From Candidatus Nomurabacteria bacterium (GTDB taxonomy: Bacteria > Patescibacteriota > Saccharimonadia > Saccharimonadales > Saccharimonadaceae), in the NCBI GenBank assembly GCA_031266275.1, contig JAISBI010000014.1:1-35602 (forward strand): a stretch of DNA of 35,602 nt, written 5' to 3'. Below, piece by piece: positions 1 to 28,392 of this stretch (positions within the stretch are counted from its first letter, which is position 1; each line of letters begins with the position of its first letter). The translations under genes were made by a program, and so were the position numbers. Below the pieces are notes generated by a model that had not been told where the DNA came from, did no database searches, and saw only the letters and a list, made by a program, of their open reading frames with translations.

Positions 1-157
1 TTTTTGGTAGGTGTAGCCTTGTTTGAGGCCTTGGGTGAAGGTTTGGGGGTTAGGATTAGGGTTAGAGAGTGGTGTGGGTGGGGTGTTGGGGGTTAGGTTC
101 TTTGAATGCCCCCCCCCCCCCCAGAGGGTTTTGATTAGTTGGGTTAGTGTATTTCAT
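1..157 (-). pseudogene. 5' end of a poly-G (G14) gene, out of frame as sequenced; runs off the window
   Basis: Reading leftward from the ATG at 157-155, the first residues are MKYTNPTNQNPL, followed by a run of 14 G. With G14 the frame ends at a stop about 17 codons past the tract, and with 15 G it stops even sooner. With 13 G (or 10, or 16) the frame stays open to the window edge and encodes a Pro/Asn/Thr-rich segment (HSKNLTPNTPP...). The start is supported by a promoter whose -10 box ends 7 nt before this ATG and matches the promoter of the FISUMP gene at 3449-4803. The layout (same promoter, short N-terminus, G tract) suggests a related phase-variable surface protein, but no FISUMP domain is visible in the fragment, so its product is unknown. 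An assembly error in the homopolymer would look the same. Confidence 0.5.
109..122 (-). repeat. Poly-G tract, 14 nt (C14 on + strand)
   Basis: Uninterrupted homopolymer about 12 codons after the predicted start codon. Thirteen G would give an open frame; fourteen are present. Tracts of this length are classic slipped-strand mispairing sites. Confidence 0.9.
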
Positions 158-3448: not shown

Positions 3449-4803
3449 CTAACTAACTAAACAACGAACCGCATATCCGTCGAGCCGAGTGTTGCTGCCC
3501 GCGCCCGGGCTGACGTAGCTACTGTGAAAGTGTGTGTAGTAAGCGTAGGCCGACAAATCGACCGACGAAGACCAATAGTCGCCGGCCGAACCCTGACCGT
3601 AGAGGCCTGAGTAGTAGCTGCCACTAAAAGCGCCCTGCCAAGCGCCCGCCGACAGCCACAGGGTTGCTAGTTGAGCCGGAGTGCCAGATTGATAGGCTCC
3701 TGTACCATCATATTTAGTATCAAGGTAGCCAAAGTCTCCACCAGCGTTTTGTCCACTGGGTAGTTTCCAGCCACTTGGACAAATGGACTGTTGAGCGATG
3801 TAGCCAGAACCTTTACCATTACTGTAATCGGCTTGGGCGGCTGAACCAGCCGTGGCCGTATAGTAGTTATATAGATAGCCACAGCCGGTTTTGGAGTTAG
3901 TATTGTAGGATATGCCGCCATTATCAGCATCTCCCGTGTTACTTATGCAGTTGGTGCTGTTGGACATACTTGAGTCGTTGGGGTTTACTTGGCGCCAGGC
4001 GTCATAGTTAGAAGAAGCTGAGGAACCGGTGCCACTACGGGTGAGATAGCCAGTCTTTACAAAGTTAGTAATATCATCATAGGTGCCTGAGGTGAAACTA
4101 CCCCATGCGAAGTCTATGGTTTTGGGTTCGGATGCAGGGACGTTGGTGGTGTCAGAGGTGAGGGCCATGCCTGGTTTTAGGGCTAGTTTGAGGTCATCTA
4201 TCATCCAACACTTGTTGTCTTTAAGCTTTCGTACTAAGTATAATTGATCATTCCTAGTATCTATCATAGTCATAGTACTAGCTGGGTCTGGGTCTGCTGC
4301 GTCATATACTGGTCTGGCTTGGCAGTCAGCTGAGGTGAAGGTTTGCATGGGTATGGGTAAGTTATCCTGCAATACATAAGCAATGGTGATGTTATAGTCT
4401 CCATTGGCTAGGTTATTATCTGCACATACTTCATATTGCGTGGTCTTTAGTTCGTTTGTGGTAGTGTTGGCTGTGTCTATAATGGTTAGTGGGTTATTTG
4501 AGTCTGTTGGTAGGTTATTAGAGTTTTGGGTGATTGTTATATTGTTACCTGCTGTATTGGTTCTTAGGTATACTTTCATGTTATAGCCTAGGGTATTCTT
4601 TGTGGTGGTTATGGTGTCTAGGGAAAAAGGAGTGCAAGAGTTGGGAGTGAGGGTGAGGGTTTGTTCTTGGTTTATGGTGAGGGTTATAGAATCGGCAGCG
4701 TTAGTGGTTTTATGGATTAGGCTAGTGAGTAGGGCTAGCAGTAGGAGGAGACATATAAGACCCCCCCCCAGGGGAGTTTGGTTTGGGATGGTTTTTTGAT
4801 CAT
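3449..4803 (-). pseudogene. FISUMP-domain surface protein, phase OFF (G9 tract)
   Basis: The body of this gene (downstream of 4759) encodes a signal/anchor helix, a region with SITLTINQEQ and LRTNTAGNN, and a C-terminal FISUMP domain with the usual order: MIDTRNDQLYLVRKLKDNKCWMIDDLKL, CPSGWKLPSG, GDYWSSS and a final GYAVRCLVS. The promoter and ATG at 4803 open a different frame, MIKKPSQTKLPWGG, which hits a stop after 22 codons because the tract has 9 G. One extra G joins both parts into a 451-aa protein with LPWGGGLICLLLLLALLTSL, nearly identical to the intact paralogue at 25623-26966 (447 aa). Starting at the internal ATG 4579 would remove the export signal. This looks like a reversible phase-OFF state and not decay, because the rest of the frame is intact. 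FISUMP proteins are secreted or surface-exposed; their ligand is unknown. A homopolymer assembly error cannot be excluded. Confidence 0.85.
4761..4769 (-). repeat. Poly-G tract, 9 nt (OFF)
   Basis: It is flanked on both sides by bases shared with the tract at 26911-26923. Ten G would be in frame; nine are present. Confidence 0.9.
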
Positions 4804-4809
4804 AGTGTT

Positions 4810-4838
4810 AGTTTAGCATAGAGGTTTTAATTTTACAA
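4810..4838 (-). promoter_or_regulatory. Leaderless extended -10 promoter of the FISUMP gene
   Basis: TTGTAA, 17 nt, TAAACT with a TGC extension on the minus strand; the ATG at 4803 follows after 6 nt. It has the same architecture and TGCTAAACTAAC core as the promoter at 165-193. Confidence 0.65.
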
Positions 4839-12331: not shown

Positions 12332-13120
12332 ATGAAAACCAAACCACCTACCACCGCGCGCCGAGAGAGAGAGAGAGAGAGAGAGAGAGCAGGTTTTGCT
12401 TCTCGTTTTCATTTAGGTAAACGAGTTGGTAAGTTAATTAATCATAAAGCTTGGTTCATTATAACGGCACTACTGGTTGGTGCTTCTTTTATAGTCGGTA
12501 TTAGTATTGGTAATAGCGCTAATAGCGCTAGTCCTAGTGGGACTAGTATGCCTATTAAGAAGGGTGGCACTGGTGCAACAAACGAACAAAATGCAATGCA
12601 AAACTTATTACCAGATTTTGCTAGTAATACTGGCAAGGTTTTGGGTTCGACTGGCACAGAAATTGGTTGAGTTGACCAAAACAACCCAGACATCCAAAGT
12701 TCAAATGATGTGGGTAAAGTCAAAGTCGACGACACCGACAAGACGATGACCACCAATGGTGAAATCGGCACAAACGGCTCAAGCAAGGTTTCGATAAATC
12801 GTCCTGATTTGTGGACGGCGAATGTTGAGTATGACTTTGGCAATGGTTTGTATGGGCAAAGATTTACAGGAACTATAACAGTTACAAAAACAAATTTGGC
12901 AGCAGTAAATCTTAATCTATCGGCATCGAAAATGATTAGTTCAGGCGGAGAATGGTTTGACGGCGTAAATTATCTATCCACTGATTATACAGACTTATCT
13001 TCAGGTATAGGCTGTGGATTTGTTAGAACGACAAGTGGTTATATTACCTTTTATTCCAGACTCAGGGATAACGACAGAGACAACGCTCCGTATGATATTT
13101 GGGTTATATATAAAAAATAA
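12332..13120 (+). pseudogene. Membrane-anchored tail-fibre-like protein, interrupted by one UGA
   Basis: A single frame of 263 codons, with a strong AAGGAGG site before ATG 12332, is broken only by TGA at 12668-12670. The first half has MKTKPPTTARRERERE from a (GA)13 repeat, a membrane helix (about 38-58, AWFIITALLVGASFIVGISI) and the motif PIKKGGTGATNEQNAMQNLL, which is typical of phage tail fibres. The stop falls in GTEIG-stop-VDQNNPD, exactly where tail-fibre-like proteins often have GWV, so a Trp TGG has probably changed to TGA. The second half (KVKVDDTDKTM ... YDIWVIYKK) keeps its frame and a natural end. It may be a recent pseudogene, a site of read-through, or a sequence error. It follows tRNA-Val without a terminator. 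Confidence 0.7.
12363..12389 (+). repeat. Dinucleotide repeat (GA)13G in a coding region
   Basis: 27 nt of perfect GA repeat, 10 codons after the ATG, translated as alternating Arg-Glu. The gain or loss of one unit would shift the frame. In the present state the tract is in frame with the membrane helix. Confidence 0.92.
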
Positions 13121-19406: not shown

Positions 19407-20816
19407 TCACTTAGCTAAACAACGAATCACATACCCAAGTAATCGAGAGTTTTCGCCCGTGCCAGGAAAAACTCTGTCGCTTACAAACCATCCGTCGTAA
19501 GCATCTGTCGCCGATACTATCGACGAGGACCAGTAGTAACCCCAGTTATTCTGACCACGAATACCACCTAAGAAGTCACCACTAAGAGCGCCTTGCCAAG
19601 CACCATCTCTCATCCACAAGGCTTGGGCATCGGGCTCGTCAAAATAATGGCTAGCGCCTGTGCCGCTCGGTTGATAAGCTAAATCTAAATTAGAAAAGTC
19701 ACCACCAACTTTTCCAGTTGGTAGTTTCCAGCCTGCTGGACAGATGGAGCCATCGGCATCGCCGCTGGTCTTGGTGTGGTCGGCCGTACCTGCGGCTGCT
19801 GTATAAAAATTATATAGATAACCGCAACCGGTTTTGGAGTTAGAGTTGTAGGTATTACCATTATTGGTCTGGCAGTTGGTGGTATTAGACATATTTGGGT
19901 CGTTAGGATTTGCTTGGCGCCAAGCGTTGGAGCTGGCGCCATCTGAACTACCGCCACTGCCGTTTACAGTTAGATAACCCGAAGTAGTGAATCTATTTGT
20001 TAGATTTGCAGCCGCTAGAGTAACTGTCGTATCTTCCGTTACGTCAGTATTGTCTGGCTCTAGAATTCCAGTGTCTTTAGTCGGGTCTGAGTCGGGTTTA
20101 CCCAGCTCCAACTTCAAATTATCAATCATCCAACACTTGTTGTCCTTTAGCTTTCGCACTAAGTATTCTTGGCCGTTTCTATTGTCTATCATTACTATGG
20201 TGCTGCCTTCGTTTGGGTAAGTTGGTAATGCACTACATGACTCATCTATGTTGGTTGTTTTGTCTTGGAAGTTGGCTCCGTTGATTACTTTGGCGTAGTT
20301 TTCGTGCAATACGTATGCAATGGTGGCGCTATATGCTCCATCAGCCATATTACTACCTGCACAAGCTTGATAGGTGGTTGTTTGCTTGTCTTTGGTGGCT
20401 GTGGTTGTGGTGGTTATTATTTCAGTAGGGTTGTTTGGATTGGTGGGTAGGTCTTCTGTAGTATCTTGTTGTTGTTTCTTGATGGTTATACCTTTGCTAT
20501 GAGTTTTGGTATAGGCTTTGATGGTATAGCCTGAGGAGTTATTAGTAGTTGTTATAGTATCTAGTGTAAAGGTAGTGCATTGACCTTTGGTTATGGTGAT
20601 TGTTTGGCCGTTGTTGGTGGGGCCGCCGTTGATTGTGAGGACGATATTGTCTTCAGCGTGAGTTAGAGAATAGTTTATGAAAATTAAAGAAAGGAAGACT
20701 AGAACGGCTCCGGAGAGGATTAATGGTCTAGGATGAGATTTGATAAAATCAGTGAGTTTTTTACTAGATTGCTTCGCTATGCTCGCAATGACGTTGGTTT
20801 TGGCTTTTTTAGTCAT
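19407..20816 (-). CDS. FISUMP-domain surface protein (no poly-G tract)
   Basis: A 469-aa intact paralogue. The N-terminus contains NVIASIAKQSSKK (from a palindromic repeat), then a signal/anchor helix (about 32-50, LILSGAVLVFLSLIFINYSL), a Thr-rich domain (EDNIVLTINGGPTNNGQTI...) and the FISUMP domain: MIDNRNGQEYLVRKLKDNKCWMIDNLKL, SICPAGWKLPTG, WGYYWSSS, YVIRCLAK. It shares the domain plan of the two poly-G paralogues, but its signal region is unrelated and has no homopolymer, so it should be constitutively in frame. The promoter is probably TTGACA at 20856-20851, directly after the T run of the small RNA upstream. Confidence 0.88.
   Translation of the reverse strand: MTKKAKTNVIASIAKQSSKKLTDFIKSHPRPLILSGAVLVFLSLIFINYSLTHAEDNIVLTINGGPTNNGQTITITKGQCTTFTLDTITTTNNSSGYTIKAYTKTHSKGITIKKQQQDTTEDLPTNPNNPTEIITTTTTATKDKQTTTYQACAGSNMADGAYSATIAYVLHENYAKVINGANFQDKTTNIDESCSALPTYPNEGSTIVMIDNRNGQEYLVRKLKDNKCWMIDNLKLELGKPDSDPTKDTGILEPDNTDVTEDTTVTLAAANLTNRFTTSGYLTVNGSGGSSDGASSNAWRQANPNDPNMSNTTNCQTNNGNTYNSNSKTGCGYLYNFYTAAAGTADHTKTSGDADGSICPAGWKLPTGKVGGDFSNLDLAYQPSGTGASHYFDEPDAQALWMRDGAWQGALSGDFLGGIRGQNNWGYYWSSSIVSATDAYDGWFVSDRVFPGTGENSRLLGYVIRCLAK
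20768..20789. repeat. Palindromic repeat inside a coding sequence (ATTGC...GCAAT)
   Basis: ATTGCttcgctatgctcGCAAT, followed by GACG. This matches the ATTGCTTCGC...GCAATGACG type of intergenic palindrome seen in many unrelated bacterial genomes. Here it lies within the FISUMP gene and is translated as IASIAKQS. Confidence 0.7.
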
Positions 20817-25170: not shown

Positions 25171-25379
25171 TATTTTTCCTCCTTTTTCTTCTCATTCAGG
25201 ATAGTTTTCGCCCGAGCAATCTCGCGCCGAGTCTTCGATATGACTCGCGGATTGGGCAAAGATTGATCGGCCAGCGACTTCTGGGCCGCCGTCAAATCTT
25301 TCTGCAAATCCGCAATCTGCGCCGTCAACTTCTCCGGCGTCATCTCGCGCAAATCTTTCACAGTTAGTGCTTTCGCCAT
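25170..25379 (-). CDS. rpmC: 50S ribosomal protein L29
   Basis: A 69-aa L29: KALTVKDLREMTPEKLTAQIADLQKDL, then NPRVISKTRREIARAKTILNEKKKEEK. L29 sits at the tunnel exit. It is the first gene of this block. The usual upstream partners rplP and rpsC are missing and a promoter stands about 105 nt upstream, so the operon starts here. The leader (25380-25475) has no obvious stem that I can support. Confidence 0.95.
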   Translation of the reverse strand: MAKALTVKDLREMTPEKLTAQIADLQKDLTAAQKSLADQSLPNPRVISKTRREIARAKTILNEKKKEEK

Positions 25380-25622: not shown

Positions 25623-26966
25623 CTACCTAACTAAACAACGAACCGCAATTCCATCATGCCAATAGCTATACGTATTTGGAGTAAACGAGGTTCGGCTGCT
25701 TTGCACTATGTATGGAGCATACGTATACCACCCAGAGTGTAAAGTCGAAGTCCAATAATGCCCCACCTCACCAATTCCTCCACCATTATTAGTCATATAG
25801 GTAGCAAGTACGCCTCTCCATGCGCCTGATGACAACCACAATATGGTAATATTTTTGGTGTTATACTGGCCATTACCACCAGTACCACCATAGGCCTGGT
25901 CAAGAACAGCAAACTCACCACCGCTAGCCCCTCCAGTTGGCAATCGCCAACCGGCCGGGCATATTGACGCATTAGCGTTTCCACTACTTCTACTCCCGGC
26001 GGTGCTAGCCGACGCGGCCCAAAAATTATATAAGTAACCGCAGCCTGTCCTGGACCCATCAGTTGCTATGTAAGCCTCGCCATATGGGTATTGACAATAA
26101 TCTGTCCGTGAGGCAGAGATTGCGGGATCATATTGGCCCCAAACGTCCGAGTTATTGTCCACATAAGTGCCTCTACCATCACGTGTCATATATCCCGATG
26201 TAGTAAAATTATTTGTCCTATTGGGCAGTGGTGTACCACTTTCGGAGCCGTCTTGAGTAAAATAAACTGTCGTATCCTTAACTACATCGGTATATTCTGA
26301 AGTTAGAGTCATGCCATCGGTAAGCTCAAATTTTAGATTATCCAACATCCACGTTTTATTATCTTTTAGCTTACCGATGCAGTATTCTTGGTTATTTCTA
26401 ATGTCTGTAGCTATGCCAGAATCGCCTATGTTCCAATCGGTTACGTCTATGTTCTGCAGAGTGCCCACATCACCCCTAAACTGTGAGCTTGGGATGCAAG
26501 TTCTTGGGTAAGCCTTTAATATATAAGCCACGGTGACATTGTGCTGTCCATTAGCTATTGCATTATTTGTGCATGCCTCATACTCCGTAGTTTTTAGCTC
26601 ATTCGTTGCAGTTATAGTATCTATGTCTATGATGGTTAGTGGGTTGTTGGAATCTGCTGGTACCGTGTTAGAATTTTGGGTTATTGTTAGATTGCTTCCG
26701 GCCGTATTTGTTCGGAGATATACGCTTATGCCGTAACCCAGTGATTGAGTAGTACTGGTTATGGTGTCTAGGGAAAAGGGAGTGCAGGTGTTGGGAGAAA
26801 GAGTCAGGGTCTTTTCGTGGTTGATGGTTAAAGTAACACTGTCGGTAGCGTTAGTGGTTTTATGGATTAGGCTAGTGAGTAGGGCTAGCAGTAGGAGGAG
26901 ACATATAATGCCCCCCCCCCCCCAGGGGAGTTTCTGAACAAATTTAGTCTTCAACCTAGTTCTCAT
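25623..26966 (-). CDS. FISUMP-domain surface protein, phase ON (G13 tract)
   Basis: A 447-aa intact protein. MRTRLKTKFVQKLPW is followed by GGGG from the G13 tract and a signal/anchor helix IICLLLLLALLTSL ending at HKTTNA. A beta-rich domain (VTLTINHEKTLTLSP, VYLRTNTAGSNLTI) leads to the FISUMP domain: IRNNQEYCIGKLKDNKTWMLDNLKF, SICPAGWRLPTGG, GHYWTSTL, GIAVRCLVR. With 12 or 14 G the frame would be lost. Its ATG lies 11 nt inside the upstream 465-aa gene and I see no own promoter, so translation is probably coupled. The nucleotide sequence from 26847 to 26908 is identical to 4697-4758 in the OFF paralogue. Ligand or function unknown. Confidence 0.9.
   Translation of the reverse strand: MRTRLKTKFVQKLPWGGGGIICLLLLLALLTSLIHKTTNATDSVTLTINHEKTLTLSPNTCTPFSLDTITSTTQSLGYGISVYLRTNTAGSNLTITQNSNTVPADSNNPLTIIDIDTITATNELKTTEYEACTNNAIANGQHNVTVAYILKAYPRTCIPSSQFRGDVGTLQNIDVTDWNIGDSGIATDIRNNQEYCIGKLKDNKTWMLDNLKFELTDGMTLTSEYTDVVKDTTVYFTQDGSESGTPLPNRTNNFTTSGYMTRDGRGTYVDNNSDVWGQYDPAISASRTDYCQYPYGEAYIATDGSRTGCGYLYNFWAASASTAGSRSSGNANASICPAGWRLPTGGASGGEFAVLDQAYGGTGGNGQYNTKNITILWLSSGAWRGVLATYMTNNGGGIGEVGHYWTSTLHSGWYTYAPYIVQSSRTSFTPNTYSYWHDGIAVRCLVR
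26911..26923 (-). repeat. Poly-G tract, 13 nt (ON)
   Basis: Encodes four glycines before the signal helix. Thirteen equals ten modulo three, the same frame as a G10 variant of the paralogue at 4761. Confidence 0.92.
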
Positions 26967-28353
26967 ACCAATCTAGTTCGTAATTATAGTCATCTTCGTC
27001 GAAACCGATTTCTGACTCGTCGTAATTCGGGTCGATGGTGTAGTCGTAGTCGTAATCGTAGTCATAAATGCTGTTATAATTCGCGCCGCTCAGTTGACCG
27101 CCGAGCAAGCCGCTGAGCTTTTCCAGTACTTCGCCGATTGGTTTGGCATTCGTCGGAATCACCACATCGACAGCTACGTCAATACCGGAATTAATATTGA
27201 GCACGCCGGAAAAGTCATCTTGCTTGGCGCTAAATCTGAATGCCGTCAATTGATGGCCGAATTTTTTCGCCCAAATTTCAATCTCAGGGATCACGTCGGC
27301 GTCAGTATCGTCGTTGTTGGCACCATAGCTATTGCTAAAGTAATTATCCAAACCATAACCACAATCAGACAACTCCGTGAAAATCGTCGTGTCTTTCATC
27401 GCGTCGGCGAATTCTTTGGCAATTTCGCGATCAAAGCTAACTTTGTAGCCGACCGAGCCGGATTCGTCGCCAACTTTATCACCGACCGTGACAAAGCGAT
27501 GGGCTTTATAAACCTTAATCAGTTCGTCGCGCACCGTTTTATCGTTGCCATATCGATCGGCCAAGTCGCTACACTGCTCCGGCAATTGGATGCCCCCGGT
27601 AGAAGCCAAACTATTAATATCGTCGCTCGTAATCAGCAACCATTGGTCGTCAATTTCTGAAATGATTTGATCGAAATCTGCGCCGAGAGTCGCCATGTTG
27701 ACACTGCCGAACGCTGAACTGACCATCTCACGCAAACCGTTTATTTTCAGATACATGTCGCCCGATTCAGCGACAATTACTTCACCTGTCAAGCCCAAAT
27801 CGACATTGAGCGACGAAGTATCGGAGACGATGTTGACATCGACTTTGGCCTGCGAATTTGCGCCGTCACTGGCGCTATCAAATTTCATCGTCATCTTGAA
27901 ATTGTCCGATTCAATAGTTAAATCGCCACCCAAACCGAGCGTCTGGGCAGAAATCACGCTGGCTATGGCATCAGTCACGATTCTGTCTTTGTTCTGATAA
28001 AAAGCAAAGTACCAGACTGCTGCCACGATCAAAACTAGCGCCACGACACCGGCAATAATCAAGCCAATCAATTTCTTGTTGCTTTTGGGCTTCGGTGCAC
28101 TGTCTTTATTGATTGAAAAATCACCGCCCGACACCGTTCGTTGCGGCGTTACGGACGTTGGCGCGGCCGTGTCGGGCGGAGCCGGCACGGTTGGAGTTAT
28201 ACTTTCGGTTGGTTCGGACGTTACGTTCTCAGCCGGTTCCGTTGCTGAATCGTCTGTCGGAGCCGTGTCATCGACAGGCGTCACCGCATCATTAAAACCA
28301 TCACCGGTAGCGTCCGGCTGATTGGTCGGTTGGTTGTTATTATCGTCGTCCAT
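26956..28353 (-). CDS. Single-pass membrane protein with acidic ends
   Basis: A 465-aa protein. Residues 1-93 are a Asp/Pro/Thr/Glu-rich, probably disordered region; one membrane helix lies at about 95-115 (LIGLIIAGVVALVLIVAAVWY). The extracellular part (about 116-420) has many short strands (GGDLTIESDNFKMTMKFDS, GEVIVAESGDMYLKING), resembling bacterial lipoprotein-like beta folds, and ends in a Tyr/Asp repeat (YDYDYDYDYT) with a strongly acidic tail. I recognise no named family. It has a Shine-Dalgarno site (GGGGAGGG). Its end overlaps the start of the FISUMP gene by 11 nt, so the two products are probably made together at the surface. Confidence 0.8.
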   Translation of the reverse strand: MDDDNNNQPTNQPDATGDGFNDAVTPVDDTAPTDDSATEPAENVTSEPTESITPTVPAPPDTAAPTSVTPQRTVSGGDFSINKDSAPKPKSNKKLIGLIIAGVVALVLIVAAVWYFAFYQNKDRIVTDAIASVISAQTLGLGGDLTIESDNFKMTMKFDSASDGANSQAKVDVNIVSDTSSLNVDLGLTGEVIVAESGDMYLKINGLREMVSSAFGSVNMATLGADFDQIISEIDDQWLLITSDDINSLASTGGIQLPEQCSDLADRYGNDKTVRDELIKVYKAHRFVTVGDKVGDESGSVGYKVSFDREIAKEFADAMKDTTIFTELSDCGYGLDNYFSNSYGANNDDTDADVIPEIEIWAKKFGHQLTAFRFSAKQDDFSGVLNINSGIDVAVDVVIPTNAKPIGEVLEKLSGLLGGQLSGANYNSIYDYDYDYDYTIDPNYDESEIGFDEDDYNYELDWYEN

Positions 28354-28383
28354 AAGACCCTCCCCAAATTAGTTATTGCCTCA

Positions 28384-28392
28384 ATTATATCA
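28384..28392 (-). promoter_or_regulatory. Extended -10 for the 465-aa/FISUMP operon
   Basis: TGATATAAT on the minus strand, within the T-rich end of the preceding terminator; the -35 position falls in the terminator stem. The weak -35 (ATTCGG) leaves this tentative. Confidence 0.5.

Follow-up and report, generated by a model that had tools for sequence, protein, structure and literature searches.

A run of thirteen guanines (G13) near the 5′ end of a FISUMP-domain gene probably serves as the on/off switch of a contingency locus that acts on translation, like that of pilC. The gene would be a 5′-truncated, promoterless copy that captured its start codon and is expressed by read-through. It encodes 447 aa (positions 25623-26966, minus strand; ORF and profile searches) and lies on contig C21, a stretch of 35,602 nucleotides hereafter called the window. 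This contig belongs to a 792-kb draft genome of Candidatus Nomurabacteria bacterium in 42 contigs (G000, the source genome).

The G13 tract and the predicted protein

The tract occupies positions 26911-26923 of the minus strand (thirteen C on the plus strand). It starts 43 nt past the A of the FISUMP ATG and spans codons 15-19. The minus strand from 26930 to 26902 reads CTCCCCT-G13-CATTATATG. As assembled, the phase is open in the 447-aa ORF (MRTRLKTKFVQKLPW-GGGG-IICLLLLLALLTSL), which corresponds to an ON state and confirms the long in-frame poly-G of the preliminary description. Frame translation of G12 or G14 at the same place leads to a stop 7 or 12 codons past the tract. Hence, gain or loss of one unit ends translation early, as looked for in contingency loci. 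In the window, G9 is matched 12 times (overlapping matches, from three tracts), against a mean of 0.06 in shuffled windows. On the other hand, the chance of being ON at any one locus is one in three, which weighs against reading a switch from the G13 phase itself. In a separate hairpin scan, the poly-G and the upstream CCCC were flagged as a terminator hairpin, which was judged to be a by-product of the tract.

We propose that slipped-strand copying during replication would add or remove one or a few Gs between the short leader and the hydrophobic export segment. With G10, G13 or G16, the full protein, composed of leader, Gly(n), hydrophobic segment, Ig-like region and FISUMP domain, would be made (ON). 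Any other tract length would leave a stub of about 25-31 residues (OFF).

The predicted protein begins with a short basic leader and a glycine run encoded by the tract, followed by a hydrophobic segment (residues 20-34), an Ig-like region (residues ~40-150) and the C-terminal FISUMP domain (residues 187-445). It reaches 42.7 bits against TIGR02145 (E 9.5e-11), over the cut-off of 41.65, and 20.7 bits against PF09603, under the cut-off of 33.9. The AlphaFold2 model is weak (mean pLDDT 63), its FISUMP part being too uncertain, and a Foldseek search with it returned weak FimA-like matches only (best E 1.3e-3). No sequence relatives of the 447-aa protein were found in the PDB. Overall, the hydrophobic export segment, the weak Ig/FimA-like region and the use of the domain as a scaffold in other systems (PMC4159848) suggest that the protein may be exposed on the surface, bind a host and play a role in attachment.

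Poly-G leaders across the source genome

The source genome contains 32 FISUMP matches, the top count in our family survey. It also has 12 poly-G tracts of at least G9, nine of which stand behind a short ATG leader ahead of a frame. Seven of these nine leader genes are readable, their bodies spanning 92 codons or more. The tract is in frame in three of them (G10 on C12, G10 on C17 and the G13 studied here) and out of frame in four (G9 at C21:4761, G9 on C23, G11 on C20 and G13 on C7), which have intact bodies of 436-552 aa. ON and OFF lengths are thus found among intact homologous copies, in this case across paralogues of one genome, and the long intact OFF bodies argue for reversibility. The two other leader genes (G14 at window position 109 and G11 on C9) exit contig ends within 36 codons; both look OFF.

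The preliminary description had given G13, as the second long tract, the same position as a tract in a paralogue. Such a paralogue is the one with G9 at 4761-4769 (minus strand, OFF; MIKKPSQTKLPWGGVLYVSSYC followed by a stop). Its intact body of 436 aa (3449-4759, minus strand) is 50% identical to the G13 protein and scores 39.2 bits against TIGR02145, slightly under 41.65. The paralogue is not the gene with G14 at 109-122 (minus strand, OFF), a third poly-G leader gene with its body off the contig; where that body begins, it is similar to a gene carrying an ALK/LTK glycine-rich domain.

Tract lengths are unequal even between copies with like flanks, as in a G10/G11 pair (55/60 upstream bases equal) and a G14/G11 pair (55/60 upstream and 30/30 downstream). 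At the same leader position, other FISUMP genes of the source genome carry (CT)n or (GA)n, and many further (CT)n tracts occur in this genome. In our model, the G13 copy would be one member of a dispersed surface-gene set with poly-G or dinucleotide tracts at the leader position.

Tracts were also observed in other contexts. On C7, an open 552-aa frame coding for a glycine-rich ALK/LTK domain (PF12810, E 3e-24) has a G13 OFF leader in front of it (C7:1659-1671, L061); here the putative switch belongs to a second class of proteins. In the window, (GA)13.5 at 12363-12389 is in frame in the leader of a putative surface gene (12332-12670, plus strand; MKTKPPTTARRERERE...) which has an in-frame TGA at 12668-12670, after which the frame is open to about 13120. 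A 781-aa frame with no Pfam match has G9 in its signal-peptide region (C25:10667-10675, L068), out of frame as assembled. On C13 (L064; 2910-2923, minus strand), a secreted-protein gene (MKKLNIVAVSAFAVTLGLAVAATPIFAG...) is preceded by G14 set between TTGACA and TATACA, an arrangement that looks like a transcriptional, promoter-spacer switch. In addition, a dispersed repeat related to CATTGCGAGCAAAGCGAAGCAATCC (window 20766-20793, L239, L066, L080) occurs in FISUMP leaders and near a reverse transcriptase (RT) gene, and may be a mobile short element. Of the three RT genes of the source genome, the one at C41:9343 has the IGNLTSQ motif that is usual in RTs of diversity-generating retroelements.

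Start codon, upstream gene and synteny

The FISUMP ATG (26964-26966, minus strand) is positioned inside the 3′ end of an ORF for a 465-aa membrane protein with a single TM (26956-28353, minus strand; TAG at 26956-26958). The resulting 11-nt overlap (26956-26966, minus strand) had been correctly described beforehand. A possible alternative TTG start in the FISUMP frame lies just past the membrane-protein stop (26952-26954, minus strand). The 5′ leader of the G13 copy (26924-26966, minus strand) reads ATG AGA ACT AGG TTG... Within this leader, homology to the paralogues is confined to the 10 nt next to the tract, and the remainder is unique and includes the end of the upstream gene. As DNA homology begins at 26933, the conserved part of the gene opens at the tract, and the site where it landed supplied the leader and start codon. 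We propose that a 5′-truncated FISUMP copy acquired a start codon within the 3′ end of a core membrane-protein gene to which it is unrelated.

Eight sister poly-G leader genes have a common promoter, TTGCAT-N16/17-TAAACT with an extended TG, that scores 11-13 of 13 in a simple match count for which shuffled sequences served as comparison. Its extended -10 TATGCTAAACT is found at 4810-4820 (minus strand) before the G9 paralogue and at 165-175 before the G14 gene. Because this promoter mostly stands about 6-10 nt before the ATG, the sister genes may make near-leaderless messages. The promoter scan did not find it before the G13 copy, where the best score is 9, a value reached by 26% of shuffles. 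The earlier statement that the gene has no promoter of its own therefore stands as regards the sisters' promoter. It has to be tempered by a lone TATAAT without -35 at 26983-26988 (minus strand), within the upstream coding end, which is a possible weak internal start site.

The membrane-protein gene is probably controlled by an extended -10 TGATATAAT (hexamer 28384-28389, minus strand) and a Shine-Dalgarno sequence GGGGAGGG (28358-28365, minus strand), both read from the sequence. These signals are a likely source of transcription for both genes. As the sisters' promoter is missing and homology starts so close to the tract, the G13 copy is probably expressed by read-through or reinitiation from the membrane-protein gene. 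Read-through would be the likeliest source, since the upstream gene has its own -10 and Shine-Dalgarno and nothing separates the two genes. Only the 11-nt overlap points to a possible translational coupling.

The same overlap, together with the common strand and the promoter-free junction, would suit a translationally coupled, functional surface pair, as supposed in the preliminary description. Because the tract is 32 nt downstream of the membrane-protein stop codon, it cannot touch the upstream product; slippage would hit the FISUMP product only, as had been predicted, toggling one component while the partner stays on. Such a pair is nevertheless quite unlikely in view of the synteny. The 465-aa protein has relatives in 90/151 family genomes, mostly with 24-33% identity, and none in a query against named genome contigs. 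Among the 28 relatives with downstream sequence, leuS comes next across an intergenic gap in 25 and another gene in 3. A FISUMP gene follows in none (0/28), so that the search for the same pair in other Saccharibacteria, which had been put forward as a check, gave a negative answer. The other FISUMP genes of the source genome stand alone with their own signals, and no Shine-Dalgarno-like sequence was found before the FISUMP ATG of the G13 copy. At the other end, the FISUMP gene is followed by L29, which has L16 directly before it in 18/18 other family genomes examined. In the source genome, L16 is followed by mnmA on C38, and leuS is found on C12 with other neighbours. We take the FISUMP gene to mark a lineage-specific rearrangement point, a double synteny break. 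The membrane-protein gene looks like a neighbour by history, a chance landlord and not a conserved partner.

It is also unlikely that the tract is a neutral glycine run or a decaying end in a silent, promoterless recombination donor for the paralogues. Loss of promoter and leader would agree with such a donor. Exchange between copies is suggested by a 62-bp segment at the start of the hydrophobic stretch (26847-26908, minus strand), identical in three gene copies and the longest exact repeat of the locus, and by the C17 copy, which is 96% identical over 150 nt. However, the 447-aa frame is intact, in phase and provided with a usable start, and the tract is long and pure, like those of the promoter-bearing sisters. 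An assembly artefact, either a misjoin of the membrane-protein end to a FISUMP body or a consensus error in tract length, is unlikely too. The draft is fragmented, with some contigs ending in such genes, the 62-bp repeat lies directly behind the tract and both synteny breaks fall at the FISUMP gene. On the other side, the leader, the tract and the next two bases are unique to this locus, and exact sharing upstream of the 62-mer covers only about 20 bp. Moreover, the other neighbours that flank L16 and leuS elsewhere in the genome are complete, so that at those places at least the genome is truly rearranged. A body swap behind the repeat is conceivable in a short-k assembly and would have left leader and tract unaffected. 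The in-frame statement survives because the leader and tract side is unique and all subfamily copies keep the frame behind the repeat; the identity of the body and its link to L29 are less certain. The split of the S10/spc ribosomal cluster between L16 and L29 is seen at G000:C38:7044-7430 and window 25188-25378.

Known systems and occurrence in the family

A slippage switch in a promoterless FISUMP copy, which we prefer, relies on a known mechanism. In Neisseria, poly-G phase variation near the 5′ end of pilC shifts the frame when the tract changes length and turns a surface protein on or off (summarised in PMC5320596). Here, poly-G is likewise near the 5′ end of a putative surface-protein gene and frame-shift switching is predicted from sequence; the host is a member of Saccharibacteria, FISUMP replaces PilC and the G13 copy has no promoter of its own. 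Campylobacter jejuni and Helicobacter canadensis are reported to have SSR contingency-locus genomes with many homopolymeric tracts and surface products (PMC6321876, PMC2823697). The source genome resembles them in having many such tracts in one small genome, and differs in that poly-G and (CT)/(GA) sit in leaders of one expanded FISUMP family and in that the host has a reduced genome of the candidate phyla radiation. Ca. Ornithobacterium hominis has up to 17 FISUMP/Fib_succ_major paralogues (TIGR02145, PF09603) with an Ig-like partner domain (PMC6421346). Domain, paralogue expansion and Ig-like partner are alike, but no tract is reported there, and neither 'phase' nor 'homopolymer' appears in the text of the paper. 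Fib_succ_major domains also occur in targets of diversity-generating retroelements, where the 3′ end undergoes templated mutation (PMC4159848). The domain is a scaffold for variation in both cases, but a template/variable-repeat pair was not found here: the three RT regions, compared with 26 FISUMP 3′ ends, showed no template repeat with adenine-only changes, and the G13 gene was rejected as a candidate target. Finally, a Gracilibacterium, also of the candidate phyla radiation, has a rapidly varying surface-protein gene, in which the hypervariability is synonymous variation in a 9-mer repeat (PMC6851277) and not a frame switch.

In a literature search that covered a minority of subscription journals, nothing was found that links FISUMP proteins or slippage switches to Saccharibacteria. 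As far as this literature goes, the lineage and the FISUMP family are new for such a switch, and so is a promoterless copy sitting behind a core gene. If present genome-wide on putative surface genes, slippage switches would offer a concrete account, testable at read level, of how tiny epibiotic bacteria that have almost no regulation fit their attachment to hosts. The G13 locus further asks whether promoterless switch copies can borrow their expression from core genes. More tentatively, and leaning slightly against it, we consider that this sub-megabase Saccharibacterium may possess a repertoire of FISUMP and other surface proteins that switch at random and in combination, based on poly-G and dinucleotide tracts in leaders and on poly-G in promoter spacers. 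New switch copies would arise, as here, when gene bodies that lack a promoter insert behind core genes and capture their transcripts. If so, each cell would show a different adhesin set to its bacterial host or to the surrounding animal.

A survey of 150 other family genomes found tracts of G11 or longer in 24, FISUMP in 41 and both in 17 (Fisher p = 1.3e-6, uncorrected for relatedness). In the relative G122, the leader ATGTCGCACAAT recurs at eight loci (within L199-L208), each time with exactly G11 behind it as assembled, mostly out of frame. Several of them are within about 1 kb upstream of FISUMP matches and some are ahead of FISUMP bodies. In an oral TM7 (HOT-351) single-cell genome, a 703-aa frame carries G12 (L304, 2031-2042) in its N-terminal part, in phase with an ATG upstream, and a sheep-gut genome has a FISUMP gene with G9, OFF.

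TTGACA-polyG sites like that of C13 were seen in G008, G009, G011 and G020; with poly-G as the spacer of -35-like and -10-like elements, the switch would be transcriptional. At L243 (3411-3420), G10 follows TTGACA upstream of a type IV pilin-like N terminus (RRGFTIVELLIVIVIIAILAAL) joined to a FISUMP domain. In two further genomes, G13 lies inside a reverse-transcriptase frame, just before the IGNLTSQ region (L230, G088:C17:7475-7487; L216, G103:C6:72912-72924), as if the RT, possibly of a diversity-generating retroelement, were itself switchable.
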